Shown one piece after another: positions 12,934 through 37,129 of a DNA stretch of 37,129 bases. The translations under genes were made by a program, and so were the position numbers. This stretch comes from Acholeplasmatales bacterium (GTDB taxonomy: Bacteria; Bacillota_I; Bacilli_A; Acholeplasmatales; Anaeroplasmataceae), in the NCBI GenBank assembly GCA_024695025.1, contig JAILIY010000078.1:1-37129 (forward strand). Direction: 5' to 3'. Positions within the stretch are counted from its first letter, which is position 1. Each line of letters begins with the position of its first letter. The notes beneath the pieces are model-generated. The model did no database searches. It was not told the origin of the DNA and saw only the letters and a program-made list of their open reading frames with translations.

Positions 12934-13860
12934 TTAATTATTGTAATTAATGAATTTAAAGAATTTCTCTACATAAGCTAAAGCTTCGGCTTTATTTAAT
13001 GTATGAGCCCATTTTTCTCTTTTTGATAAATCTACATTTTCACTATATTCATAGAATCTAGCTGTTTTGTCTCTGTTTGTATTATTCCATTTGTTCCAAC
13101 CGAGTGGATTGATATGTTTACCTAAATTACACATGATAAATGCACATGTTCCGTAATCTCTCCAAGGTCTACCTAAATAGATATTTTTTGCGTCTCCTTT
13201 TGCGATTAGATTACATTTATAGAATAAATATCCAAATTTATCACTTTCTTCATGAGATGGAGCTGTAAGGTAACCACCGTCATGACCATCTAGATTAATT
13301 GATACTATATCGCAGTTAATAAACAAAGCATAAGCACCACCAAAGATAAAATCTACATTACCTATAATCTCGCATTTATCATATATTTGTATAGATTTAT
13401 TGCCCTTTAGGTGGGATTGAGGTAAGAAGCCTTGATGTCTTTGTATTAAATCCTTAGGTAGTGGACCGGTAAATAATGTATCTTGTGCACTTTTAATGAT
13501 AGAATTAGTAATAACAAAATTATTACCTTCAACATGTAAAGCTACTGCTTGACCATATTTAAGTGAATCTGAGCAAGAATTCATTATTGTTACGTCTTCA
13601 ACTGAAACGTTATCTCCACCAACGAATACGGTATATGTTCTAAATGTATTACATTCATTAAAATCTGGCATTATCTTATGGTAAAAGTCATGGTTTGTGA
13701 TAATAGTCTTGTCTTTTCCAGCACCTTTAATCTTGATGTTGTTGTTAAAAAACTCGACTTTTTCGTTATAAACCCCTTCATTTAAGTATAATTCATCATA
13801 TTCATTCATTTTCTTTAATGTCTCATTTATTGAGTCATTTGGACTAATTTTATATTTCAT
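12934..13860 (-). CDS. Pectinesterase (carbohydrate esterase family 8), no signal peptide
   Basis: GQAVALHVEGNN, SAQDTLFTG, GNVDFIFGGA, YLGRPWRDYG catalytic motifs of CE8; RBS AGAGGATGAT upstream of ATG. Confidence 0.92.
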   Translation of the reverse strand: MKYKISPNDSINETLKKMNEYDELYLNEGVYNEKVEFFNNNIKIKGAGKDKTIITNHDFYHKIMPDFNECNTFRTYTVFVGGDNVSVEDVTIMNSCSDSLKYGQAVALHVEGNNFVITNSIIKSAQDTLFTGPLPKDLIQRHQGFLPQSHLKGNKSIQIYDKCEIIGNVDFIFGGAYALFINCDIVSINLDGHDGGYLTAPSHEESDKFGYLFYKCNLIAKGDAKNIYLGRPWRDYGTCAFIMCNLGKHINPLGWNKWNNTNRDKTARFYEYSENVDLSKREKWAHTLNKAEALAYVEKFFKFINYNN

Positions 13861-13984
13861 AGTATCATCCTCTTTCTATATAATATTACCATATTTTAGA
13901 TGTTTTTATCATTATAATTTATAATATTTTAACAATAATATAAATCATTTTACCTGTATGGAATAAATTGTTGAGTTATTGTGG

Positions 13985-14011
13985 TTTTTTTGTGCAATTT
14001 GCACATAAAAA
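13985..14011. promoter_or_regulatory. Candidate operator: extended palindrome in the divergent intergenic region
   Basis: TTTTT-t-TGTGCAA-T-TTGCACA-t-AAAAA: 15-nt perfect core (13991-14005) and 5-bp complementary flanks with one mismatched pair; centred ~62 nt upstream of the predicted +1 of the plus-strand promoter. Confidence 0.6.
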
Positions 14012-14024
14012 TGCCAAAATACTA

Positions 14025-14053
14025 TTGACTATTATATATAATAATGCTAAAAT
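14025..14053 (+). promoter_or_regulatory. Predicted sigma-A promoter of the pectin/ABC gene cluster
   Basis: TTGACT (14025-14030), 17-nt spacer, TAAAAT (14048-14053). Confidence 0.7.
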
Positions 14054-14194
14054 ATTGTGTGAAAAAGTGAAAACGCTATATTTTTGCGCGCTTTTTATGT
14101 GAAATTATATTTAAAATGTGTGAATATATGGCGAGTATCGTCATAACTATTGTTATGAGGTGGTAGTATTAATAATAGAGTTTTTTACAAATAT

Positions 14195-14938
14195 ATGATT
14201 TTCGACTTAGCAACATTGTTAATTGTCGGATTTATCTTAGAAATAATTTGTGTTAAATTTGGAACAACAGTGTTCTTTGGTACACCTTTTATGTGTATAA
14301 CATTTTTAATAACATTTATAGCAGTTGTTAGATGGAATTTGTGGGGGTTAATGATTGTTCCATTGTTAGCGCTTGCTACTATTATAGGCGGAAGATGGAG
14401 TGAATTACCTTACTTAGCTCACGTATATGACTATAAAGCGTATATATCTATAGTACTTGGGTTATCAACAATAGGTATTAACTCAATATTCTTTATTAAA
14501 TTTGGTACTGATAAGATTACTGTATCTTTCCTAAAGATTGTTGGTTTATTATTACTAGATTATGTCACATTTACAATAATACAATTTATATCATATAGAT
14601 TGATGACTTCTCATAGTTTACTTGAGTCAGGAAAAATCATATATGAATATACAAATAAAAATGATGTAACAAAAAGCTATAATTTATGTAATTATGGCGA
14701 AAATGGTTTTGTGTACAACCTATTTGCGTTAATCGCAGGTATTGTTGGCACATTAGTACTTAGGTCTCAAGGAGTTGTTTGCAATGCTAAACAAAAATCC
14801 GTTGAAGATAGAAAAAATGCAGAACTCGATCGATTAGACAGGGAAAATTTTACGATTGAGGATGCAGTTAATACCGACGAAAGTGATGGTGAAACTGAGT
14901 CGGATAAGGATGAAGATGAAGACCTTCATTCAATTTAG
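14195..14938 (+). CDS. Uncharacterised polytopic membrane protein (about 6 TM) with acidic C-terminal tail
   Basis: Hydrophobic segments from MIFDLATLLIVGFILEII to FALIAGIVGTLVL; acidic tail DESDGETESDKDEDEDLHSI. Start uncertain (see finding on ATT 14168). Confidence 0.7.
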   Translation: MIFDLATLLIVGFILEIICVKFGTTVFFGTPFMCITFLITFIAVVRWNLWGLMIVPLLALATIIGGRWSELPYLAHVYDYKAYISIVLGLSTIGINSIFFIKFGTDKITVSFLKIVGLLLLDYVTFTIIQFISYRLMTSHSLLESGKIIYEYTNKNDVTKSYNLCNYGENGFVYNLFALIAGIVGTLVLRSQGVVCNAKQKSVEDRKNAELDRLDRENFTIEDAVNTDESDGETESDKDEDEDLHSI

Positions 14939-14958
14939 TATTAAAGGATGGTGTATTT

Positions 14959-15999
14959 ATGCAGAAGATAGTTCAGACTGATCAAAATGTAGTTGATGAA
15001 GTCGAACGAACAAAATGGAAACGTACGTTTGAAACATTTCTAAAAGATTGGCGTCTGTATGTCCTTCTAGTACCAATGTTATTATTCCTAATATTGTTCA
15101 AATATTGGCCAATTGGGAGTATTCTACAAGGTTTTAAATGGGGTGACTATTCAGATACGCTATATGGAGATCAATGGTGTGGTTTCTATTGGCTAGACTA
15201 CGTATTCGATGGTGCAGTAGCTCCACAATTCTGGTCAGCATTTAGAAATACATTCGTTAACTCTATGTATGGCTTGATATTTGGCTTCCCTATCCCTATT
15301 TTCCTAGCTTTACTATTCAGTGAAGTTAAGAATCAATATTATCGAAGCTTCCTACAAGTATCTTGTTACCTACCTCACTTCGTATCTACAGTAGTTGTTA
15401 CAACTATCATTAGATTATGGTGTAATGGTGAAGTTGCTAGTACAGGAAACGCCGGTGGTGTCTTATATCAATTATTCAAAGCGTTAGGATGGAATAAGCT
15501 TGATAGTGGCGATAAGCTTACAACAGACTTATTATTACATCCAAAGTTCTTCAGACCTATTTACCAAGTTTCTGGTATTTGGGAAGGTTCAGGTTATGGA
15601 TCAATAGTTTATTTCGCAGCGATTTTAGCAATATCACCAACTAGCTATGAAGCTGCAAGAATCGATGGTGCTTCTAAGTTACAACAAATTCGTTATGTAA
15701 CATTCCCTGGTATGGCACCTACATTAACAATCATGTTAATAACTCGTATCGGTCATATTTTAAATATCGGTTACGAAAAAATTATTCTATTAGTTGAAGA
15801 TAAGGAATCTTCTTGGGAGACAGCGGATGTTATTTCTACTTACGTATATCGTATGTCAGGTAGATCTTCATTAACTACTATCACTCCAGTTGCGCAAGTT
15901 GGTATTGCGATGGACTTATTCAACTCATTAATTGCAATGGCTCTAGTCTTAGGTGCTAACGCAATCAGTAGACGTGTATCATCTACTTCATTATTCTAG
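14959..15999 (+). CDS. ABC transporter permease, LplB/YtcP-partner type (CUT1)
   Basis: LYVLLVPMLLFLILFKYWPI, PIPIFLALLFSEVKN, EAARIDGASKLQQIRYVTFPGMAPT (EAA loop). Confidence 0.93.
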   Translation: MQKIVQTDQNVVDEVERTKWKRTFETFLKDWRLYVLLVPMLLFLILFKYWPIGSILQGFKWGDYSDTLYGDQWCGFYWLDYVFDGAVAPQFWSAFRNTFVNSMYGLIFGFPIPIFLALLFSEVKNQYYRSFLQVSCYLPHFVSTVVVTTIIRLWCNGEVASTGNAGGVLYQLFKALGWNKLDSGDKLTTDLLLHPKFFRPIYQVSGIWEGSGYGSIVYFAAILAISPTSYEAARIDGASKLQQIRYVTFPGMAPTLTIMLITRIGHILNIGYEKIILLVEDKESSWETADVISTYVYRMSGRSSLTTITPVAQVGIAMDLFNSLIAMALVLGANAISRRVSSTSLF

Positions 16000-16016
16000 T
16001 AGGAGGTAAACGCTAT

Positions 16017-16883
16017 ATGATGAAAAGATTGGATAGAACCGAAATTATATTTAAGATACTATCTTACGTATTGTTAACAATCTTCGCACTTGCATGTTTA
16101 TATCCATTTATATTTATCTTATCATGCTCAGTTTCATCAAGAACTGCAGTAGATGCTAACGATGTATATTTATATCCAGTTGGATTTAATATGAATGCTT
16201 ATAAATACGTATTCGAGGATAAGAGATTCTGGTTATCTTATTGTAACTCATTCTTCGTTACAATGTATGGTACTTTAGTATCAATGATCGTAGGTATTTG
16301 TGGTGCTTATGCATTATCAAAACCAAGATTATTATTTGGACGTGGATTTAACTTCATGTTAGTATTCACAATGTGGTTTAACGCAGGTATGATTCCAACA
16401 TATCAAAACTTCAAAACTTTCAACGTAAATAACATTTATATGTTTATCATCGCTTTAGGTTTCAATGCGTTCAACATTATCTTGTTGAGAAACTATTTCT
16501 CATCAGTTCCAACAGAAATAGAAGAAGCTGCAACAATCGATGGTGCAACAGAATTCCAAATCTTATTAAAGGTTTATGTTCCTATGTCAAAAGCATCAAT
16601 CGTAACAGTAGCAATGTTCTATGCTGTATCAAGATGGAATGGTTATATGTGGGCTCAAATGTTGTTAGACGAAAGCAACTGGCCTCTAACAGTTTATATT
16701 AGACAAGAAGTAGAAAGAATTATCAGCGCAATTAATGAAGCTGGTACAAACAACTACAATTTCTCAGTTTATGCATTACGTTATGCATTCATAGTGTGTT
16801 CAATAATTCCTATCATCGTTATTTATCCTAAGCTTCAAAAATACTTTGCAGCCGGATTAAATGTTGGTGGAGTTAAGGAATAA
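16017..16883 (+). CDS. ABC transporter permease, YtcP/LplC type
   Basis: EEAATIDGATEFQILLKVYVPMSKA EAA loop; C-terminal YPKLQKYFAAGLNVGGVKE typical of the family. Confidence 0.94.
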   Translation: MMKRLDRTEIIFKILSYVLLTIFALACLYPFIFILSCSVSSRTAVDANDVYLYPVGFNMNAYKYVFEDKRFWLSYCNSFFVTMYGTLVSMIVGICGAYALSKPRLLFGRGFNFMLVFTMWFNAGMIPTYQNFKTFNVNNIYMFIIALGFNAFNIILLRNYFSSVPTEIEEAATIDGATEFQILLKVYVPMSKASIVTVAMFYAVSRWNGYMWAQMLLDESNWPLTVYIRQEVERIISAINEAGTNNYNFSVYALRYAFIVCSIIPIIVIYPKLQKYFAAGLNVGGVKE

Positions 16884-16920
16884 AAAAATTTAAAGAAGAA
16901 AAGAAAAAAAGGAGAAAAAA

Positions 16921-19251
16921 ATGAAATTAAAAAGAATTGCTTTTTTAAGCGCAACAGCTGCAATTGCTGTAGCTTCACTTACTTCATGTAAAGGTGGTGG
17001 TAGTAGCACTGTAAAGGATGAAACTACACTAGATATTAGTATCAACTATAATGGTAAACAAGGTGTTAGTATGCGTGAGGATAGTTATGCTAACCCAGTT
17101 GATGGTAAGAACTATGTTAAGGGTGATATTTTACCTTTATGGAGTAGACTAGGCGAAATCTTAGGTTATGGTATTAAGGATGCATGTAGTTATTCTACAG
17201 GTACTATCAATACTGACTTTGATAACATTCAAACAGATGGTTATATGTCTCAAACATCAAAGAAGCGTCCAATGGATTTATTATATGCTAACACATCTAA
17301 GATCAATCCAGCTGGTGCAGCAGGCCAAGCTGTCAACTTAAAAGATCACTTAGACGAAATGCCTAATTTTAAGAAATTCTTAACTGATAACAAGGGTATT
17401 GAACAAGTAATCACTTACGATGGTGGTATCTACTATACTCCTTATTATGATGGTATGAACTATATCGAAAAGATGATTTCTATGAATCATGATTGGGTTA
17501 AAAAATTATTAGACCAAGAAGATACAACTGCATTCGACACAGTTCTTTCTGGTACTGGTGGAGCTGCTAACACATTAAAAGAAGCTAAGTATCAACCATT
17601 CATGGATGATACTAACAACTATCCTGATGCTGAAACTAAGGTTAAAGTTTCAACAATGGGCGATGCTGCTGGTAATACAAAAGAAATTACTATTAAGCAA
17701 ACTACAAACATTATTAAGCAACAAAATGAAGCTTTAGCTTCTGGTGCAACTGGTGCTGCATTAGCTAAACAATTACAAGATTATTTAAAGGTTGCATTTG
17801 CTGATGAAATTGGTACAGATAAGACTTATAAGAATTTATCTGATATCTTCGTTAGTGAACAAGCTGCATATAATGTTGATGAATTAATCGCATTAATGCG
17901 TGTTGTTAAGGCTAACCCTAAGACTTTAACAGGTGATGAAAAGACTGAAATTGAAGTATTCTGTCCACGTGGTGCTACAAACAACCGTTGTGATAACATC
18001 CAAGATTTCATGGGTGTTTGGGGTGTTCAAGGTACAACTGGTGAAAAAGATATGTTATACTTCGACGCTGATGGTAAGTTAAGAGATGGTGGTTCAACTC
18101 AAGCTAACTATGATGCTCTTGAATATTTACAACAAATTTATGATGAAGGTTTAATTATTGAAAACTTCTCTAACACAAGTGAAACAGTAACTGGTGGTAC
18201 TTATTATTTAAATAGATATTTCTCTCATACAGATAAGAACCCTGGTAGTGGTTTTATGGTTTATGATTATAATGCTTCAACTTCAGCATGTAACTTAAAA
18301 GACTCAGCTGGTATCGGTACAGATGCTTCTAAGTTAACTAATAATCAAACATCAACAAGAAACTTTGGTCCAGTTGTTACACCACTTTCTTATTGGACAA
18401 CTAAGACTTCTGATGGTGATTATGCTTTGGGTATCAAAGCTAATCGTGCTAACCAAACATTAATGCGTTATACAGAAGATAACAGAGGTCTTAAGGGTAC
18501 TTCTTGGATGATTCCTTCTAAATCAGATAACATTACTGGTGCATTAAAGATGATGGATTATATGTTCTCTGAAAAGGGTCAATGGTTAAATAACTTCGGT
18601 CCTGAAGCATATTGGACAGAAGAAAATCCAACAACTACTTATGCAGGTAGCAAGACTCCTCAATTAAATGCTAATGCATTAAAGATTGATTCAAATTCAG
18701 GTAATGACTTCTGGAGTGATATGAGAGGTTACGTTGGTGCTACTCATGGTATCGGTAACGTACGTCCAGCTTCATTAAACTTCCAAGTAACTAACGCAGA
18801 TGGTAAGGCTGGTATCCAAAATATGGATAACGCAATCGCATCTGGTGCTGTTACATTAGCATTAATGTCAAGATCTGAAACTAACCTTAAGTTTGCAGTT
18901 TCTGTACCATCAGCTGGTTATGTTGAAAATGGTAAGGAAATCGCTGCTAAGTATGATGCAGTATCAGGATTCTGGTCAACTACATTAGTATCAACAGACG
19001 ATTTAGGTTGGTGTAAATATGTACAACTTAACGATGAAGCTAACGCAGCTGCAAGAAATGCAGATGGTTCTGTTAAGGAAGAAGCTGTATTCGGTAAGGG
19101 TACTTCAGCTAAGGAAGACTATAGTTATAAGAATGTTATGGATCAAAGATATACTACAAGATTAACTTCTTACTTATATCAAATGGCATCATCATTAGGC
19201 GCAACTTATGGTGCTGACTACATGGTTAACTATATTCCAACTACAAAATAA
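16921..19251 (+). CDS. Large extracellular solute-binding lipoprotein (776 aa; LplA/YtcQ-like)
   Basis: Lipobox signal MKLKRIAFLSATAAIAVASLTSC; located immediately after two cognate-type permeases; NLKDHLDEMPNFKKFL and later SBP-like motifs. Confidence 0.87.
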   Translation: MKLKRIAFLSATAAIAVASLTSCKGGGSSTVKDETTLDISINYNGKQGVSMREDSYANPVDGKNYVKGDILPLWSRLGEILGYGIKDACSYSTGTINTDFDNIQTDGYMSQTSKKRPMDLLYANTSKINPAGAAGQAVNLKDHLDEMPNFKKFLTDNKGIEQVITYDGGIYYTPYYDGMNYIEKMISMNHDWVKKLLDQEDTTAFDTVLSGTGGAANTLKEAKYQPFMDDTNNYPDAETKVKVSTMGDAAGNTKEITIKQTTNIIKQQNEALASGATGAALAKQLQDYLKVAFADEIGTDKTYKNLSDIFVSEQAAYNVDELIALMRVVKANPKTLTGDEKTEIEVFCPRGATNNRCDNIQDFMGVWGVQGTTGEKDMLYFDADGKLRDGGSTQANYDALEYLQQIYDEGLIIENFSNTSETVTGGTYYLNRYFSHTDKNPGSGFMVYDYNASTSACNLKDSAGIGTDASKLTNNQTSTRNFGPVVTPLSYWTTKTSDGDYALGIKANRANQTLMRYTEDNRGLKGTSWMIPSKSDNITGALKMMDYMFSEKGQWLNNFGPEAYWTEENPTTTYAGSKTPQLNANALKIDSNSGNDFWSDMRGYVGATHGIGNVRPASLNFQVTNADGKAGIQNMDNAIASGAVTLALMSRSETNLKFAVSVPSAGYVENGKEIAAKYDAVSGFWSTTLVSTDDLGWCKYVQLNDEANAAARNADGSVKEEAVFGKGTSAKEDYSYKNVMDQRYTTRLTSYLYQMASSLGATYGADYMVNYIPTTK

Positions 19252-19281
19252 TTTATAATTTAAAATATGTTTTATATAGTT

Positions 19282-19311
19282 TAGTGATATAGCCTAGGAG
19301 CTATATCACTA
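19282..19311 (+). promoter_or_regulatory. Strong intercistronic hairpin after the SBP gene (no U-tract)
   Basis: TAGTGATATAGC-CTAGGA-GCTATATCACTA: perfect 12-bp stem with 6-nt loop, followed by GACTAATCC and the next RBS rather than a T-run. Confidence 0.75.
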
Positions 19312-19335
19312 GACTAATCCTATAAGGAGGTTTTT

Positions 19336-20145
19336 ATGCCAAATTTTCTTAAGTCAAAAGCAAAATTATTAATATTAATATATGGCGTTATTATTGCGCT
19401 TGTATTATTATTTGCTCTTGCTTTCATGACAAATTATGCAGATGTTCATGTATTCTATAGATATGGCACTGATAAGCAAGCTATTTTCAACAGTTCATCT
19501 GTATTAAATATTAATGGACAAACAAATAGTGAGTTATTTACATATTTCTCAAAATTAGCTTCATCTGGTGGTGCTGATGCAAATAATCCATTATATGAAT
19601 TATTAGAAGGCAAATCTGGTTCAACTGTTTTTGTAGATTCTGGTTTAGCTCAAATTGTTTATAATTTCCAAACAGATATGAGTGATTTTAATCAACAACT
19701 TATTATTTACTTTGTTGTGTCTATTATTTTATTCTCAGTTATGCTTATATGTTCTAATCAAAGCAGAAAAGTATATTATATTAGTAATTTAGTTGTAGGT
19801 ATTACTGTACCTCTTTTGATCACTGTTTATAGTGTGGTTATGCTAGTTAAGAATTTAAATTTAATGAATAGATTCTTAGATAATCAAGATTTATTTAAAG
19901 CAGTTGCTTATTTACAAAATGGTAAAATTGAGGCCATTGATAAAAATAATGCGATAAATGATTGGAATATAATTCTAGATCATACTGAAAAAGTAAATGT
20001 TACACCATTTATTTTCGGTATTATTGTTATTATTTTAGTAATTGTATATTCTATATTTATGGCTATATATACACTTTACAGATTTAAAGAATCATCTAAA
20101 CGTAGAGCAGAAATTATTGAAAGGGCGGCGAATAATAATGATTAA
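19336..20145 (+). CDS. Uncharacterised membrane protein (about 4 TM, large extracytoplasmic loop)
   Basis: RBS AAGGAGG; TM segments LLILIYGVIIALVLLFALAF, QLIIYFVVSIILFSVMLI, VVGITVPLLITVYSVVML, FIFGIIVIILVIVYSIFM. Confidence 0.75.
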   Translation: MPNFLKSKAKLLILIYGVIIALVLLFALAFMTNYADVHVFYRYGTDKQAIFNSSSVLNINGQTNSELFTYFSKLASSGGADANNPLYELLEGKSGSTVFVDSGLAQIVYNFQTDMSDFNQQLIIYFVVSIILFSVMLICSNQSRKVYYISNLVVGITVPLLITVYSVVMLVKNLNLMNRFLDNQDLFKAVAYLQNGKIEAIDKNNAINDWNIILDHTEKVNVTPFIFGIIVIILVIVYSIFMAIYTLYRFKESSKRRAEIIERAANNND

Positions 20146-20743
20146 TGAACAAAAAGAAAAAGCTACTCTTAATAAAATGTCTGATCTTGAATATGCAAAA
20201 AATGATGTGGAAATGATGAGATACAGAGCTAACGCTCTATCATCAAAATTAGGTATTTTTGGTATGATAGCTAGTTTGTTGGGCGCATTTATGTGCTTAA
20301 ACTCTTTCAGACCTCATGATTTTCAGATTTTTATCATTATAATGCTTAATATCGTTATTTTATTAGGCGGTTTCCTTGCTTGTGAAAAGGCGAAGAATTA
20401 TTCTAAAATTGGATCTATTTTCCAAATTATCTTTGGTGCTGTATGTATTGGTAGAATGTTCTATATTCCACTTATGCTTATTAGATACTATAACATTTAT
20501 AAAAAAGGTAATACAGCAAAAGGCTATGCTAAAGCTGTTGAAAATTTAGGTAATTCAATTAAGGCTAAGGATACATCAAGCTATGCTCATGCATTCTTCC
20601 CTTCTAGCGGTACAGCAAGAGGAATTACAGCAATGATTTTATTTGCAATTGCAGGTGGTTTATTTATCGCTGCAGGTGTAATCGGATATTTAAGAAGTCA
20701 AAAACTTACTAAGTATCTAAATAGTATTAACGAAAAGAAGTAA
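20138..20743 (+). CDS. Uncharacterised membrane protein (about 4 TM); start taken at ATG 20138
   Basis: ATG 20138 overlaps the upstream stop (20145); the track start 20042 lies within the upstream gene. TM-rich: LGIFGMIASLLGAFMCL, FIIIMLNIVILLGGFLA, GITAMILFAIAGGLFIAAGVIGYL. Confidence 0.75.
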   Translation: MINEQKEKATLNKMSDLEYAKNDVEMMRYRANALSSKLGIFGMIASLLGAFMCLNSFRPHDFQIFIIIMLNIVILLGGFLACEKAKNYSKIGSIFQIIFGAVCIGRMFYIPLMLIRYYNIYKKGNTAKGYAKAVENLGNSIKAKDTSSYAHAFFPSSGTARGITAMILFAIAGGLFIAAGVIGYLRSQKLTKYLNSINEKK

Positions 20744-20758
20744 GGAGGATAAAAGAAT

Positions 20759-21883
20759 ATGGCTTCTGATGTGATTTTAAAGGATGTTAATAAGGTTTAT
20801 CCTAATGGCTTCCACGCAGTTTATGATTTCAATATTGAAATTCAAAAAGGTGAATTTATTGTTCTTGCCGGTCCTTCTGGATGTGGTAAGTCAACAACTT
20901 TACGTATGATTGCCGGACTTGAAGAAATTTCTTCTGGTGATTTAATTATTAATGGTAAGAAAGTTAATAACGTAGCACCTAAGGATAGAGATATCGCAAT
21001 GGTATTCCAAAATTATGCCTTATATGCTCATATGACTGTATACCATAACATGGCTTTCTCTTTAACAATTAGAAAAGTAGACCCTGTTGAAATTCATGCT
21101 AGAGTTATGAAAGCTGCAGATGTATTAGGATTAGTTCCATACTTAAATAGAAAACCTAAGCAATTATCAGGTGGTCAACGCCAACGTGTTGCTGTAGGTC
21201 GTGCTATCGTTCGTGACCCAGTAGTATTCTTATTAGACGAACCATTGTCTAACCTAGATGCTAAATTACGTGGTACAATGCGTAAGGAATTAATGCAATT
21301 ACATGAAAGATTAAATGCTACATTTGTTTATGTAACACATGACCAAATAGAAGCATTAACATTAGCTACAAGAATTGTAGTTATGAAGGACGGTTATGTT
21401 CAACAAATTGCTACACCAAAGGAAATGTTTGATAATCCAGAAAACTTATTCGTTGCAGGTTTCATCGGAACACCTCCAATGAATTTCTTAAATGGACAAA
21501 TAGATGAAAATGGTGAATATTTCGTTCAAGACTTAAATGAAGAAAACGAAAGTGGTACTCAATTAAAGTTTAAGTTAACTCAACATCAACAAGATATTAT
21601 TGGTAACTATATTGGTAAGAAGGTTACTCTTGCAATTCGTGCTGAATATATTTACATTGATGATGCTAATTTAAGCAAGAATCCTGATTCACAATTCGTT
21701 ATTGAAACTGATTATGTTGAATATTTAGGTGCATATAACCTAATTTATGGTTTAATTGGTGGCGAAAACGTTATTGCAAAGGTTTATAATCGTCAAGATA
21801 TTACAGACAAACAAATTAAAGCTTGTTTCGATATGGAAAAAGCACATTTCTTCGATATTGAAACAACAAAGAGAATTAGATAA
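20759..21883 (+). CDS. ABC transporter ATP-binding protein, MsmX/UgpC (CUT1) family
   Basis: Walker A GPSGCGKST, signature LSGGQRQRVAVGRAIV, Walker B VFLLDEPLSNLDAKLR, C-terminal regulatory domain. Confidence 0.96.
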   Translation: MASDVILKDVNKVYPNGFHAVYDFNIEIQKGEFIVLAGPSGCGKSTTLRMIAGLEEISSGDLIINGKKVNNVAPKDRDIAMVFQNYALYAHMTVYHNMAFSLTIRKVDPVEIHARVMKAADVLGLVPYLNRKPKQLSGGQRQRVAVGRAIVRDPVVFLLDEPLSNLDAKLRGTMRKELMQLHERLNATFVYVTHDQIEALTLATRIVVMKDGYVQQIATPKEMFDNPENLFVAGFIGTPPMNFLNGQIDENGEYFVQDLNEENESGTQLKFKLTQHQQDIIGNYIGKKVTLAIRAEYIYIDDANLSKNPDSQFVIETDYVEYLGAYNLIYGLIGGENVIAKVYNRQDITDKQIKACFDMEKAHFFDIETTKRIR

Positions 21884-21898
21884 TGGAGGTATAAATTT

Positions 21899-22567
21899 AT
21901 GGATGATCAAGAACGCTATGAAGATGTGCCTCGTGAAAGAAAACGTTTCGTAGCTATATTTGTTATATTTGGACTATATGTTAGAAACATTTTCTTCGAT
22001 TTTATAAATTCTTTTAAATATAATCCAATGAAATTACCTTCTCTGCTTGTTGCAGCTCCAGGTATTTTCTTAGGCTTCTTCTTAGGTTTCCACTCTAAAG
22101 TTATCGGACCTATCACTTACGATATGGCTTGGTATACTTCGAATGGAGAAAGAGGTGCATGTAGTTATAAAATTGGATTTGACTATGGTGGAATTGTTTT
22201 ATTCATCATGATGTTACTAGGTATCTTAAATATTTTCGGTGCTGCATCTATGTCAGGTAAGAGAAATTTAGGCTCAGTAGTTTTATGTACAATTTCAACA
22301 ATTGCAATCGTAGTATTAAGTTGTTTATACATTTATTCAATTTTAATTTACAAAGAAGGCGCCTCAACAGCAGTAAGAGTTGCGGGTGAAAAAGTTAAGA
22401 GCGGTGACATTGATTTATGTTATATTCCAGGTACAAAGAAATTTAGTACAAATAGTAACTGGACATGGTCAATGATTTCTGTAGTTGTTTCATGCGTAAC
22501 ATCAGTTACTGGCTGTGTTTTAGGTTTTATCTTCTACGATAGAACATACGAAAAGGTGGATAGATAA
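21899..22567 (+). CDS. Uncharacterised membrane protein (about 4 TM)
   Basis: RBS ATGGAGG; PSLLVAAPGIFLGFFLGF, GGIVLFIMMLLGILNIFGA, VVLCTISTIAIVVLSCLYIYSI, SMISVVVSCVTSVTGCVLGFIF. Confidence 0.75.
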   Translation: MDDQERYEDVPRERKRFVAIFVIFGLYVRNIFFDFINSFKYNPMKLPSLLVAAPGIFLGFFLGFHSKVIGPITYDMAWYTSNGERGACSYKIGFDYGGIVLFIMMLLGILNIFGAASMSGKRNLGSVVLCTISTIAIVVLSCLYIYSILIYKEGASTAVRVAGEKVKSGDIDLCYIPGTKKFSTNSNWTWSMISVVVSCVTSVTGCVLGFIFYDRTYEKVDR

Positions 22568-23178
22568 TGAAAAAGAAAGCTAATCAATCTCCAGAGAATA
22601 TTAATCCTTATGAAGTTGATAAGCTTTCTAAAATCCCATCGTGGATTATTGTTGTCTTTCTTAAATATTGGGCAGCTGCGGCTGCTGTTTTCTTTATAGC
22701 AATAGGTGGTACTGATATCGGATTAGATTGGAGCGAAGAATCCTTCGAATCTGATTTCAGACTTATTGTTTCTATTGCGTTTATGACAGCGATTTTTATG
22801 AATTATATCATTAAGCAATTCGTTATGCTTATGCATAATAGAAGGAATAACACTTATCGATATAATATGATAAATTTACGTGGATTTTCAGCTTTTTTAC
22901 TTTATATTGTATATTCATTTGTTTTATCATTTATCCTTTATTTTGTTACAGTATTTATGGGTATAAAAGGATGGGTGATCAATCCGTTTACAACAGTAGA
23001 CTATGGTATTGAACCATTTACATATGGCTTATGCTTTATTGTTGTAGATTCTATGTTCGTATTTGTTAAAAATATGGTGGTTAACATTTGTTATAGAATT
23101 AGATATAAGAAACAATTAAATGATAAATCACCATTGATAATTAATAAAAACGAAAATGTAATCGCCAATAATTTATAA
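22567..23178 (+). CDS. Uncharacterised membrane protein (about 4 TM)
   Basis: Overlaps the upstream stop (TAATG); SWIIVVFLKYWAAAAAVFFIAIG, LIVSIAFMTAIFMNYI, FSAFLLYIVYSFVLSFILYFVTVF. Confidence 0.75.
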   Translation: MKKKANQSPENINPYEVDKLSKIPSWIIVVFLKYWAAAAAVFFIAIGGTDIGLDWSEESFESDFRLIVSIAFMTAIFMNYIIKQFVMLMHNRRNNTYRYNMINLRGFSAFLLYIVYSFVLSFILYFVTVFMGIKGWVINPFTTVDYGIEPFTYGLCFIVVDSMFVFVKNMVVNICYRIRYKKQLNDKSPLIINKNENVIANNL

Positions 23179-23192
23179 TTAAAGGAGATTTT

Positions 23193-24743
23193 ATGAATTT
23201 TAATGAATTATTTATAACTTCTAGAAGTATTTCGATTGAACTAGAAAATAATGACATTTTCTCAACAGATAAATATGATTTATTTGTAAACGATGAATTA
23301 TATTTAGAAAATTCTGTTAAAAATGTTGTTTCTATATATGGTTTATTCCCTAATAAGGAATATTCAATTAAAATTAAGCAAAACGATAGATGTTTTGAAA
23401 AAACAATTAAGACATTAGATGAATCTGTTTCATTAAATGTTTTAAGATTTGGCGCAAAAGGCGATGGAAAAACTATTGATACCAATGCCTTACAATGTGC
23501 AATATTAGCTTGTCCAGATAATGGTAGAGTATTTATCCCTAAAGGAAATTATTATACTGGTCCATTATTCTTAAAAAGTAATATTACTATAGAACTTGAA
23601 AAGGGAGCTGCTTTAATAGGTGATGTCGATAGAAATCATTACCCTATTTTACCTGGAACTATTTTTACATCAAACGAAAAGGATGAATATAATTTAGGTT
23701 CTTGGGAAGGAAATCCTCTTGATTGTTTTGCGAGCATCTTAACTGGTATTAATGTTGAAAATGTCAGCATTATTGGTGAAGGTGTTGTTGATGGCAACGC
23801 TAATAATTCTGATTGGTGGGTTGATGTTAGAACAAGAAGAATAGCTTGGAGACCAAGAGGCTTATTCTTAAATAATTGTAAAAATATTACATTACAAGGT
23901 CTAACTGTACAAAACACGCCATCGTGGAATTTACATCCATATTTTTCTGAAAACCTAAAATTTATTGATTTACAATTAATTAATCCAAAGAATTCGCCTA
24001 ATACAGATGGTTGTGATCCAGAATCATGCAAAAATGTTGATATTATAGGTGTATATTTCTCTGTAGGTGATGATTGTATAGCAATTAAATCTGGAAAGAT
24101 TTATATGGGTAGAAAGCACAAGAAGCCTAGTGAAAAGTTTAATATTAGAAATTGTTCTATGAACTTTGGTCACGGTGCTATCGTTTTAGGTAGTGAAATG
24201 AGCGGTGGTATTAAAGATATAGAAGTATCACAATGCTTATTTAATCAAACTGATAGAGGATTAAGAATTAAGACAAGACGTGGTAGAGGAAAAGATGCTA
24301 TTATTGATGGTATAACATTTAAGAATATTCTTATGAAAGATGTTCTTACTCCTCTTGTTGTAAATATGTTCTATTATTGTGATCCTGATGGTCATACAGA
24401 GTATGTTTATTCTAAAGAAAAATTACCTGTAGATGATAGAACACCTTATCTTGGTAAATTCAAGTTTACTGATATTGATTGTGAAAATGTAAATGTTGCA
24501 GCTGGTACTTTCTTCGGATTGCCAGAACAACCAATCGATTCTATTGACATAGAAAATGTTTCATTCCATTATTCTAAAGATCCAAAGGCTGGAGTTCCAG
24601 CGATGATGGATGGTTTAGATCCAATGAAAGGAAAAGGTTTAATATTTTCTTATGTAAATAGTGTCAATATTAAAAATGTTTCTTTCGATGGTTTAAATGA
24701 TAAAGAGTTTGAACTTAACGAAGTAAATAATTTTAAGAAGTAA
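23193..24743 (+). CDS. Glycoside hydrolase family 28 (polygalacturonase-type), no signal peptide
   Basis: GH28 motifs NTDGCDPES, GDDCIAIKSG, GHGAIVLGSEMSGG, RGLRIKTRRGRG; N-terminal ~80-residue accessory domain before LRFGAKGDGKTIDT. Confidence 0.93.
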   Translation: MNFNELFITSRSISIELENNDIFSTDKYDLFVNDELYLENSVKNVVSIYGLFPNKEYSIKIKQNDRCFEKTIKTLDESVSLNVLRFGAKGDGKTIDTNALQCAILACPDNGRVFIPKGNYYTGPLFLKSNITIELEKGAALIGDVDRNHYPILPGTIFTSNEKDEYNLGSWEGNPLDCFASILTGINVENVSIIGEGVVDGNANNSDWWVDVRTRRIAWRPRGLFLNNCKNITLQGLTVQNTPSWNLHPYFSENLKFIDLQLINPKNSPNTDGCDPESCKNVDIIGVYFSVGDDCIAIKSGKIYMGRKHKKPSEKFNIRNCSMNFGHGAIVLGSEMSGGIKDIEVSQCLFNQTDRGLRIKTRRGRGKDAIIDGITFKNILMKDVLTPLVVNMFYYCDPDGHTEYVYSKEKLPVDDRTPYLGKFKFTDIDCENVNVAAGTFFGLPEQPIDSIDIENVSFHYSKDPKAGVPAMMDGLDPMKGKGLIFSYVNSVNIKNVSFDGLNDKEFELNEVNNFKK

Positions 24744-24854: not shown

Positions 24855-24892
24855 TTAAATAAATGATACCGTTTTTTATGGAGGTTTTAAAA

Positions 24893-26509
24893 ATGAAGAA
24901 AATATTTCGTTCATTAGGTCTACTGACTTTAGCTGGTGCAGCGTTATTAACAGTATCAAGCTGTTCAGTATTTGGGGAAACTTATTATTATAAGTATGAC
25001 TCTGCAACAAAGGGTTATGCAGTTACTGGTTTAAAGAATTATACTAGCAATAGTATTACTATTCCTAGTAAGCATAATAATAAAAAGGTTACTAAGATTG
25101 CAGATGATGCATTTGAAGGTTGGGATATTCTAAAGAAAATAAAATTACCTAGTTCAATTAAGGTAATCGGTGATGATGCATTTAAGGATTGTAAATCATT
25201 AACATCATTTACTGTTCCTTCAAAAGTTGAAGAAATTGGTGATAATGCATTTGATGGATGTATATCATTAGAAACAGTTAGTTTACCAGATTCATTAGTA
25301 TATTTTGGTGACTATGTATTTGATGATTGTGACAAGTTATCATTTGATGGTGCAGAAACAGATACTAATGCTGTTTATTTCAATGATATTTTAATCAAAT
25401 TAACAGATACTGGTAAAACACAATCAGAAATCACTGTTAAAGATGGAACAAAGTTCATTAACTCTAATGTATTCGAAAATAATACTAATATTACAAAAGT
25501 AACTTTACCTAATACAGTTACAACAGTTTGTGCTGAAGCATTTAATGGTGCATCAAATTTAACATCTGTTAATATTCCTACATCATTAATTCAAGTTGGT
25601 TCTAAGGCTTTTTATGGTTTTGATAATTTAACTGAATTAAAATTAACATCTGATAAGGAAATTAGATTAAAAGAAAATGCATTAGAAAATTGTACAAACT
25701 TAAAGACAGTAGAATTAAATGGTAATGCAATTATTGAACGTCAAGCACTTGTTGGTTCAGGAGTTGAATCAATCAAAGTTACTGGTTCTGCAACATTTGC
25801 TGAACATGTAACAACTACTTCAGAAGGTTCAACTATATTAAATAATGAAGCATTTAAGAATGTTACATCATTAACTACTGTTGATTTAGGTGAAGGTTCT
25901 GTTATTGGTACAAATACATTTGAAGGTTGTACATCATTAGCAACATTAACAATGACTAATGTAAAAGCTATTAAGGCTAATGCATTCACTGGTTGTACAT
26001 CATTAGCAACTGTCGTTTTACCTGAATCATTAGAAGAATTAGGTAATGGTGCATTTAAGGATTGTACAGGTTTAACATCTGCTAAAATCAATGAATCAAA
26101 AGTAACAATGATTGGTTCTGGTTCTTCAACATCAACTGATTATGGTGTATTTGAAGGCTGTACATCATTAGCAACAGTTACTCTTAATGGTAAAATTACT
26201 GAAATTAACTTTAAATCATTCTCTGGTTGTACATCATTAACATCAGTTACAGGAATTGAAAATGTAGAAATAATTGCAGGTAGTACATTTGAAGGCTGTA
26301 CATCATTAGCATTATTCTCTGTATCTAAGAATCTTGAACAAATTGGTGGTAACGCATTTGCTGGTTGTACATCATTAACAACATTTACTTATGCTGGTGA
26401 TAAGGATGCATGGGAAAAATTAGTAATAGCTGAAACTGCATTCACAGGTTCTGCTTTAACTGAAATAACTTGTTCAAATGGTACTATTTCATTGACAAGT
26501 TCTAAGTAA
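24893..26509 (+). CDS. BspA-like leucine-rich repeat (LRR_5) surface lipoprotein
   Basis: ATG 24893 with RBS GGAGG preferred over track start 24863; lipobox MKKIFRSLGLLTLAGAALLTVSSC; repeated AFxGCTSLxxVxLPxSLxxIGxxAF. Confidence 0.9.
   Translation: MKKIFRSLGLLTLAGAALLTVSSCSVFGETYYYKYDSATKGYAVTGLKNYTSNSITIPSKHNNKKVTKIADDAFEGWDILKKIKLPSSIKVIGDDAFKDCKSLTSFTVPSKVEEIGDNAFDGCISLETVSLPDSLVYFGDYVFDDCDKLSFDGAETDTNAVYFNDILIKLTDTGKTQSEITVKDGTKFINSNVFENNTNITKVTLPNTVTTVCAEAFNGASNLTSVNIPTSLIQVGSKAFYGFDNLTELKLTSDKEIRLKENALENCTNLKTVELNGNAIIERQALVGSGVESIKVTGSATFAEHVTTTSEGSTILNNEAFKNVTSLTTVDLGEGSVIGTNTFEGCTSLATLTMTNVKAIKANAFTGCTSLATVVLPESLEELGNGAFKDCTGLTSAKINESKVTMIGSGSSTSTDYGVFEGCTSLATVTLNGKITEINFKSFSGCTSLTSVTGIENVEIIAGSTFEGCTSLALFSVSKNLEQIGGNAFAGCTSLTTFTYAGDKDAWEKLVIAETAFTGSALTEITCSNGTISLTSSK
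25925..26377 (+). repeat. Degenerate ~69-bp coding repeats sharing the core GGYTGTACATCATTA
   Basis: Core seen at 25925, 25991, 26156, 26225, 26294 and 26363 (spacings 66, 165, 69, 69, 69), each encoding GCTSL. Confidence 0.85.
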
Positions 26510-34382: not shown

Positions 34383-34412
34383 GGGACTAATTTATAATTA
34401 GTCCCCTTTTTT
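34383..34412. terminator. Bidirectional terminator between ATP synthase operon and YigZ-family gene
   Basis: GGGACTAAT-TTATA-ATTAGTCCC followed by CTTTTTT. Confidence 0.88.
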
Positions 34413-35063
34413 AATTTCTATATTGAACTGTCCTAAGAAAGTTAATGCTTGATTATCGACTTTATATTTATATAAATCATCTTTAAACTTATCGATTAAA
34501 TCAGATTTTAAAAAGCCTGTTATTATTACATCTGTAGTGAATGAAATATCATCATATGTGATGTAATTAAATACTTTAAGTAAGGTATTATATCCAGAAT
34601 AAGAAGTGGTAAATTTGAATTTAGTTTGTTCCTCATCGACAAATAATTCACATTTTTTAACAACTTCACTAACAGATTGACTATACGCTCTTACAAGACC
34701 ATTTGCTCCAAGCAATATTCCACCAAAATATCTAGTAGTTATAGCTAAAACATTAGTTAAATTATTCTTTTTAAGTACATCAAGCATTGGAAAACCTGCA
34801 GTTTTTTGTGGTTCACCATCATCTGATGCCTTCTGTATTTCTTGGTTATCTCCTAATATATAGGCATAACAATTGTGAGTTGCGTCATAATATTTTTTTC
34901 TTACACGCTCTAAAATATCATAAGCGTCTTCGACATTATCTATCCTATATAACGAAGTTATAAAAACGGATTTTTCTATAGTAATTGTATTTTCGTATGT
35001 TTTTTTAATCTTATACAATTTAATCACCAAATTTATTATACCCAATTGTTTAATTATATTCAA
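34398..35063 (-). CDS. YigZ/IMPACT (UPF0029) family protein; true start may be TTG at 35018
   Basis: ASDDGEPQKTAGFPMLDVL, TTRYFGGILLGANGLVRAYSQS motifs. Confidence 0.9.
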   Translation of the reverse strand: MNIIKQLGIINLVIKLYKIKKTYENTITIEKSVFITSLYRIDNVEDAYDILERVRKKYYDATHNCYAYILGDNQEIQKASDDGEPQKTAGFPMLDVLKKNNLTNVLAITTRYFGGILLGANGLVRAYSQSVSEVVKKCELFVDEEQTKFKFTTSYSGYNTLLKVFNYITYDDISFTTDVIITGFLKSDLIDKFKDDLYKYKVDNQALTFLGQFNIEIKKGD

Positions 35064-35103: not shown

Positions 35104-35133
35104 TTTTCATTATTGCCTAAAATATGTTATAAT
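35104..35133 (+). promoter_or_regulatory. Predicted promoter of the CCA-pullulanase ORF
   Basis: TTTTCA (35104-35109), 18-nt spacer, TATAAT (35128-35133). Confidence 0.5.
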
Positions 35134-35165: not shown

Positions 35166-37129
35166 TTGAATTATTTAGACTACGGTATAGAATTAATAAA
35201 TAAAATAGAAGAAATGGGCTATAAAGCTTACCTTGTAGGCGGAGCCATAAGAGATTCTTTATTAGGCTTAGAATCAAATGATATTGATATTGCCACATCA
35301 ATGCCACTTGAACTAATTGAAAAAACATTTAAAACTAAGCCAAATGGTAAAGATTTTTTTAGCTTGACTATTATTTATAAAAAATATACTTTTGAAATAA
35401 CTCATTTTAGAAAAGATATTAAAAGTATTAATCATCGTCACCCTGAGGTGAGTTATTGTGACACATATGAAGAAGATTCCAAAAGAAGAGATTTAACAAT
35501 AAACGCTTTGGCAATGGATAAAAATCGCCAAATTTTAGATTTTCATGGTGGATTAGATGACTTAAAGGCTAAGACTATAAAAATGATTGGAAATCCAGTA
35601 AAAAGGTTTGATGAGGACGCTTTGCGTATTTTACGTGCAATCTATTATTATGCTAAATTAGATTTTAATTTAGATAAGGCTACAGAAAAAGCTTTATGTG
35701 CAACTAGAGAATTATTAGTATATTTATCTGATGAAAGATTGTTTGCGAACTTCAAAAGAATCGCATATTTAGATAACGATAAAGGACTTAAATTCATCAA
35801 GGATAACAATATATTCCAATTTGTTCCAGTATATAATAATTTATTATCTATATTTGATAAGAATTATAAAGAAGAAGATTTAGTATTTTATTATTATTTA
35901 AAATTCTTTGAATATTTCCCATTAACTTCAAAAGAAGATAAGAAATTATGTAAAGAATTAGATATATTAATCAATTCTAATTTTGGCAATTATGAATTAT
36001 ATTTATATACTAAGACATATAAAAGATTTAAATCATTATTATCTAATTTAGGTTATGATACTGCATCTATCGATAAGAAATTAAGACAATTAGTAATCAA
36101 ATCTGAAGATGATTTAGAATTGTCTAAAGCCTTAATGTCTAAAGTTATTAAGACTCAAAAGAAACAATTATATATAGATAGAACAATTAAATTAATTTTA
36201 GATAAGAAAATCAATAATACAAAAGAAGATATCACAAGTGTATTAGATGAAAAAATAAAAGCGTATGTAGATTCATTTTACGCAATTACAATTTTATTAG
36301 ATAAAGATGTTTATGAAATCAATAAAGATTTTTATTTAGAATATGATAATAAAAAATCTATAAGACTTGATATATTTGAATTTTACGAGGAAGATAGATT
36401 TTATAAATATGTAGCCAAGCTTCCAAAAAATATTAAATTAAACGAAGAATATTATATTACTGATTTTAAAGGTAACAGAGGTCTTTTAAGATCAGGTAGT
36501 ATAATAAGAACTCAAGAATTTGAAAATAAATTTAAATATGATGGCCCTTTAGGATTTGTTTATACTAAAAATTCAACTAAATTTTATGTTTGGACACCAG
36601 TTGCCAAACAGATGGTTTTAGAATTATATCACAACGACATAATTAAAAAATATAATATGGTCTGTGACAATAATGGTGTATGGAGTGTAGAAGTTTTAGG
36701 AGATTTAGAAGGATATGGCTATTTATTTGATGTAAGAGTATTTGAAGAATTCGATCAAATATTAGATCCATATGCTATATCTAGTGCTGAAAATCATAAA
36801 TATAATTATGTAGTAGATAAAACTAAATTTTATAAGATGAGATATGATAAGCCAAAATTTTCTGGCAGATATACTGATTCAGTTATTTATGAGGCAAGTA
36901 TAAGAGATTTTACAAGTTATTATAGCGGACATTATTTAGATTTAATTAAATCTCAAGATTTTGAAGGATATCCTACAGGTCTAGAATATATAAAATCTTT
37001 AGGTATTACTCATGTTCAATTTTTACCTACATATGATTTTTATGGTGTAGATGATATAGACAAAGATAGATTTTATAACTGGGGTTATAATCCTCTTCAA
37101 TATTTCGTACCTAGCGGTTGGTACAGTGA
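35166..37129 (+). CDS. CCA tRNA nucleotidyltransferase fused in frame to type I pullulanase (GH13); 3' end outside window; not in supplied ORF track
   Basis: TTG start 35166 with TGAGGTG RBS; no in-frame stop to 37129. CCA motifs LVGGAIRDSLLGLESNDIDIAT, RRDLTINALAMD, RFDEDALRILRA; pullulanase N-domain AYVDSFYAITILL, IIRTQEFENKFKYDGPLGFVYTKNSTKFYVWTPVA, VIYEASIRDFTSYYSG, YNWGYNPLQYFVPSGWYS. Confidence 0.9.
   Translation, partial: MNYLDYGIELINKIEEMGYKAYLVGGAIRDSLLGLESNDIDIATSMPLELIEKTFKTKPNGKDFFSLTIIYKKYTFEITHFRKDIKSINHRHPEVSYCDTYEEDSKRRDLTINALAMDKNRQILDFHGGLDDLKAKTIKMIGNPVKRFDEDALRILRAIYYYAKLDFNLDKATEKALCATRELLVYLSDERLFANFKRIAYLDNDKGLKFIKDNNIFQFVPVYNNLLSIFDKNYKEEDLVFYYYLKFFEYFPLTSKEDKKLCKELDILINSNFGNYELYLYTKTYKRFKSLLSNLGYDTASIDKKLRQLVIKSEDDLELSKALMSKVIKTQKKQLYIDRTIKLILDKKINNTKEDITSVLDEKIKAYVDSFYAITILLDKDVYEINKDFYLEYDNKKSIRLDIFEFYEEDRFYKYVAKLPKNIKLNEEYYITDFKGNRGLLRSGSIIRTQEFENKFKYDGPLGFVYTKNSTKFYVWTPVAKQMVLELYHNDIIKKYNMVCDNNGVWSVEVLGDLEGYGYLFDVRVFEEFDQILDPYAISSAENHKYNYVVDKTKFYKMRYDKPKFSGRYTDSVIYEASIRDFTSYYSGHYLDLIKSQDFEGYPTGLEYIKSLGITHVQFLPTYDFYGVDDIDKDRFYNWGYNPLQYFVPSGWYS

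Follow-up and report, generated by a model that had tools for sequence, protein, structure and literature searches.

At the 3' end of a 37,129-nucleotide stretch of DNA (the window), an open reading frame for a CCA tRNA nucleotidyltransferase appears to run on into a type I pullulanase. Is this a genuine fusion, how could it have arisen, and does it imply that the two enzymes act together? The window corresponds to contig C92 in a draft MAG (G000; 1.65 Mb, 178 contigs, 78% complete) from an uncultured genus of Acholeplasmatales that resembles Anaeroplasma. Re-reading of the frame confirmed the claim of an earlier note on this sequence that it stays free of stops for 654 codons, from TTG at 35166 to the window edge. 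Extending the contig, which that note had proposed as a check, recovered the full ORF: the 3'-most 141 nt of C92 are identical to the 5'-most 141 nt of contig C31 and have no other copy in the genome, the pattern that adjacent contigs in an assembly graph would show. The joined ORF comprises 1046 codons and is closed by a TAA at C31:1316–1318. A false join is ruled out by the uniqueness of the overlap and by the alignment of the joined protein with its relatives throughout.

The TTG start is plausible, given the GAGGTG upstream of it and the agreement of the N-terminal MNY with MNYFETG of the relatives. The promoter-like site further upstream (Table 1) carries little weight, because matches in the promoter scan were no more common than in shuffled sequence. 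Two bases past the end of the fused ORF, at C31:1321, starts a yhaM-like ORF (YhaM-like proteins being 3'–5' exoribonucleases), and the ORFs after it read as pheS, pheT, and rlmN.

Table 1. Features of the fused locus and its surroundings (positions in the window).
Feature	Position	Strand	Remarks
cca::pulA fused ORF, 5' 654 codons	35166..37129	+	Other 392 codons and stop on C31 (locus L004, 142–1318)
CCA-adding-type nucleotidyltransferase domain	35166..36248	+	GGAIRD, DID, flexible loop, RRDLTINA, EDALR
Fusion junction E-K-I-K-A	36249..36263	+	Last CCA helix leads almost directly into first PulA_N1 strand
Relic pulA start, ATG AAA AAA TAA, +1 frame	36247..36258	+	Read from the sequence; putative history
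Type I pullulanase, part in window: PulA_N1, CBM48, start of GH13 barrel (YNWGYNP)	36258..37129	+	Catalytic residues on C31
Promoter-like site (TTTTCA, 18 nt, TATAAT preceded by TG)	35104..35133	+	5' of fused gene; weak evidence
Neighbour gene, YigZ/IMPACT-like by reading (putative)	34398..35063	-	Diverges from fused gene

Residues 1 to about 360 make up an enzyme of the class II CCA-adding type in which every core motif is present, as the earlier note had read from the first ~360 codons, and Pfam places PolyA_pol above its cut-off at residues 21–138. Motif A with the DxD metal-binding residues (GGAIRD...NDIDIAT) is seen here and in the two other fused proteins introduced below (G008 and G009); motif B RRD and motif D EDxxR are also found (RRDLTINA and EDALR; EDSLR in G008 and G009). 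Loss of the flexible loop is a hallmark of bacterial CC-adding enzymes (PMC7014341); the loop segment has 37 residues in 3/3 fused proteins and 22 in the HD-type paralogues of L040, L041, L042, and L044. The nearest solved structures for residues 6–320 are CCA-adding enzymes of Planococcus and Geobacillus. With such class II enzymes (Planococcus halocryophilus 6ibp, Geobacillus 1miv) the domain shares the core motifs, the EDxxR nucleotide-binding template, and the full-length flexible loop, but it carries an additional 680-residue C-terminal pullulanase and is divergent, scoring below the NCBI equivalog cut-off: PRK13299 is the best-scoring CCA family for the fused protein, though with 206.8 bits (G000) and 253.9 bits (G008) against the required 290. 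The CCA-adding label is based on the motifs and on unfused orthologues, and the sequence would also be compatible with an A-adding-only activity.

HD-type nucleotidyltransferase paralogues are found at L005:507–1775 (contig C51 of G000) and in the four loci named above; in the latter four the flexible loop is short by about 15 residues, CC-adding-like, and that of the G000 paralogue reads likewise short by eye. The loop-deleted paralogue co-occurs with the pulA-linked enzyme in several members of the genus, including G000. A split pair of CC- and A-adding enzymes is nonetheless disfavoured by four genomes (G003, G012, G015, and G023; 91–96% complete) that have the pulA-linked enzyme only, which makes full CCA activity of the latter more likely. 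All sampled tRNA genes of the three fused genomes encode CCA (17/17, 15/15, and 10/10; 42/42), which makes repair the most likely role of the CCA domain, one in which dosage would matter little. One genome of the genus, G014 (L046; 99% complete), has no PolyA_pol-family protein, and 12/12 of its sampled tRNA genes encode CCA; the enzyme thus seems dispensable in the genus, which would make it understandable that a bulky fusion is tolerated.

Residues from about 363 to 1046 constitute a complete type I pullulanase, which agrees with the earlier reading of such an enzyme after ~360 codons. The joined protein exceeds the equivalog cut-off of TIGR02104 (type I pullulanase; 559.9 vs. 504.5 bits); PulA_N1 (365–448) and CBM_48 (461–537) are above their Pfam cut-offs; and the motifs YNWGYNP (637), GFRFD (751), YGEGW (782), and ECHDN (867), with the GH13 catalytic D/E/D, are intact. 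Among solved structures, those closest to the part from residue 362 onward are type I pullulanases (B. subtilis AmyX, Anoxybacillus), and the best 50 matches of the structure search are pullulanases and related debranching enzymes, with TM-scores up to 0.93 by target length. The fused half has the same PulA_N1, CBM48, GH13 barrel, and catalytic D/E/D as AmyX/PulA (Bacillus subtilis 2e8y, Anoxybacillus 3wdh), its fold matching the Anoxybacillus enzyme with a TM-score of 0.93. Unlike these, it lacks a start codon of its own and is made as a C-terminal extension of the CCA enzyme.

The clade falls among uncultured Acholeplasmatales and Anaeroplasma, many of rumen and gut origin. Among 27 genomes of the genus, the fused frame is present in G000, G008 (RGIG3211, goat reticulum), and G009 (UBA7004), all three being MAGs or draft assemblies; this amounts to 3/160 genomes of the order, with none further among the strong matches listed. 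Residues 1–654 of G000 are matched end to end and without stops in the two other species (48% identity), which excludes a chance open frame. The fusions of G008 and G009 have 1054 codons each and are 85% identical, with zero indels between them; dS is ~0.5, and dN/dS is 0.23 for cca and 0.17 for the pullulanase part. Both halves are under purifying selection, which together with the absence of indels over 1054 codons suggests that both are functional. The other genomes differ in frame: in G018, G019, G021, and several species of another genus, cca and pulA lie in the same frame with one stop between them, while in the remaining genomes they overlap or abut in different frames. The long open-frame values that gave the appearance of fusion in G018, G019, G021, G031, and others were thus rejected, one in-frame stop separating the genes. 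The in-frame fusion claimed in the earlier note is therefore borne out by two further species. That note had also held that separate genes in clade-mates, with a sequencing error in a single strain, would speak against it; most close relatives are indeed unfused, but an error confined to one strain does not agree with the fusions in G008 and G009. Given these two and the lost pulA ribosome-binding site of G000, an artefact of sequencing or assembly does not fully account for the fusion.

The junction spans codons ~361–366 (about 36246–36263), close to the earlier estimate of 36240, and is covered in G000 by the peptide around SVLDEKIKAYVDSFYAITILLDK. The AlphaFold2 model of the G008 fusion (1054 residues) has two confident domains (mean pLDDT 92.4, pTM 0.70); the CCA helix ends at residue 363, the pullulanase strand starts at 367, and confidence dips to about 73 only at the linker. 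A short linker with the lowest confidence at the domain boundary could be seen in a polyprotein that is cut there by a protease; this is extremely unlikely, as there is no candidate protease or conserved cleavage site, and the junction residues differ among G000, G008, and G009.

In the unfused members of the genus, pulA starts with ATG 4–6 codons 5' of the conserved A-Y-I-D-S (23/23), with Shine-Dalgarno pairing of -5.1 to -9.7 kcal/mol (23/23). At the old start position of the fused species, ATG is absent in 3/3 (G009 has ATT), and the pairing is -2.4 (G000), -5.3 (G008), and -5.9 kcal/mol (G009). The relic start of G000 contains a run of six A at 36250–36255; one extra A would give ATG AAA AAA ATA AAA GCG (MKKIKAYVDS), the usual N-terminus of PulA. 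The A-run at the start of pulA has thus apparently lost a single base in the window's species. A similar relic start is found at the junction of G008.

The same observation could mean that the run truly has seven A, so that the G000 fusion would be a consensus error in a single draft MAG assembly (178 contigs, 78% complete) and the two genes would be separate and overlapping. We consider this improbable: with seven A, cca would overrun its usual end by some 17 codons, and no Shine-Dalgarno sequence would precede the pulA ATG, whereas 23/23 unfused relatives have one. Besides, there are 49 A or T runs of at least six within the 31 open genes of the window, indicating a low rate of run-length errors, and the fusions of G008 and G009 do not depend on this site, where G009 has no A-run.

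Somewhat easier to envisage, yet still unlikely, is that a separate pullulanase is made alongside the fusion, by non-AUG internal initiation or by slippage on the A-run. G009 has AAAGGG seven bases 5' of the ATT at the ancestral start position, and G000 and G008 share A6-T-A4 at the junction, with an upstream out-of-frame ATG that would come into frame if one A were inserted. On the other hand, the junction of G000 offers no usable ribosome-binding site (-2.4 kcal/mol), and between codons 331 and 480 its frame is devoid of ATG, GTG, and TTG; a six-A run is short for transcriptional slippage, and the element is not common to all fused species. Limited internal initiation may occur in G008 and G009, which keep a weak Shine-Dalgarno-like sequence.

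The gene order bears on how the fusion arose. The order cca–pulA–yhaM is conserved across Acholeplasmatales and related Tenericutes, cca and pulA being adjacent in Acholeplasma, Izemoplasma, and other Tenericutes. In 21/22 unfused loci, pulA starts from -35 to +15 nt relative to the cca stop, and yhaM follows. The sole exception to the tight spacing is L112, with a cca frame of 325 codons and pulA 185 nt further; its cca is possibly frameshifted or truncated. Short overlaps of this kind support coupling by termination–reinitiation (PMC10666635). The string, with the same genes, order, and orientation, is the direct ancestor state of the fused locus, which differs from it in having no stop and no start between cca and pulA.

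In trees built for the pullulanase, for the CCA domain, and for both combined, G008 and G009 are sisters adjoined by the unfused G010. The pullulanase and combined trees place G000 on an outer branch, so that the three fused sequences are not monophyletic, and G010 sits within the smallest group holding all of them. The AU test rejects a single fused clade; two independent fusions are thus the simplest reading, and the fusion probably arose twice. A single origin, disfavoured by this test, would be possible with one gain and a reversal in G010, for which a stop, a start, and a ribosome-binding site would have to be regained.

These observations are consistent with the following scenario. In the ancestors, ribosomes finishing cca would have restarted at once on the overlapping pulA. 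A small indel would then have removed the stop between the genes: by loss of one base from the A-run at the pulA start in the window's lineage, and by an independent event in that of G008 and G009. Once fused, the start codon of pulA would no longer be needed and would decay. With a linker of about three residues between them, the two domains would be expected to fold and work independently, a fixed 1:1 dosage being the only obvious consequence. Altogether, the locus probably encodes a genuine, nearly neutral fusion of the coupled cca and pulA, of ~1046 residues, in which two cytosolic enzymes would work independently; ancestral termination–reinitiation, activity of both domains, and near-neutrality are the parts that we infer from sequence. 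Fusions of adjacent or overlapping bacterial genes have been discussed (PMC3711429) and share this mode of origin, an indel or stop loss between coupled neighbours. As the partners here come from pathways that are unrelated, it is not obvious that a shared function can be inferred, as is usually done for fused genes.

An adaptive fusion would tether CCA-end repair to alpha-glucan breakdown, co-localising or co-regulating RNA and carbon-store metabolism. The order cca–pulA–yhaM, kept over long distances, and the probable double origin within one genus are in line with it; however, overlap and coupling account for the conserved order, the fused frame occurs in 3/160 genomes of the order only, and cca is also fused to yhaM in other genera, which points to operon geometry. 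No described link between tRNA CCA repair and alpha-glucan debranching was found in a full-text search of open-licence papers. We hold such an adaptive role to be very unlikely. Its specific form, a fusion selected because it couples tRNA 3'-end repair to glycogen debranching, and thereby RNA quality control to mobilisation of the carbon store, is highly improbable; if true, it would explain two origins in one genus. RNA/glycogen co-localisation and a processed polyprotein, both suggested in the earlier note, are thus unsupported, and a coupled gene string with stop loss fits instead.

The in-frame cca::yhaM fusion has 680–682 codons (L207, L208, L209, and L099, of which L209 and L099 are apparently the same contig). 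It is found in three genomes from two other genera of the family, in which pulA was not detected. In contrast to cca::pulA, it has retained an in-frame ATG and an internal ribosome-binding site, so two products would be possible. The parallel lends strength to the above scenario: with cca fused elsewhere to another neighbour, the recurring theme is the geometry of the gene string rather than a particular partner.

A full-text search of open-licence papers found none naming both enzymes together with a fusion, in line with the earlier remark that no such fusion was known; the cca::pulA architecture appears to be undescribed. Both functions are already known, and this is not a new RNA–glycogen system, so the functional surprise is limited. 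The locus is of interest as a clean natural case in which translationally coupled, overlapping genes have given rise to a fusion protein although its two enzymes share nothing obvious: a single genus contains the unfused, the in-frame-with-stop, and the fused state, and the relic start codon can still be read. It also cautions that a fused pair need not share a function, and that automatic annotation may be misled, giving the whole protein the name of one half.

Elsewhere in the window, positions 12934–24743 hold an apparent pectin-use locus, as read from the translations, with a pectinesterase-like gene, two ABC permeases, a large lipoprotein-like substrate-binding protein, an ABC ATPase, and a GH28-like polygalacturonase. 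It is followed at 24863–26509 by a lipoprotein-like protein of 548 aa with BspA-type leucine-rich repeats.
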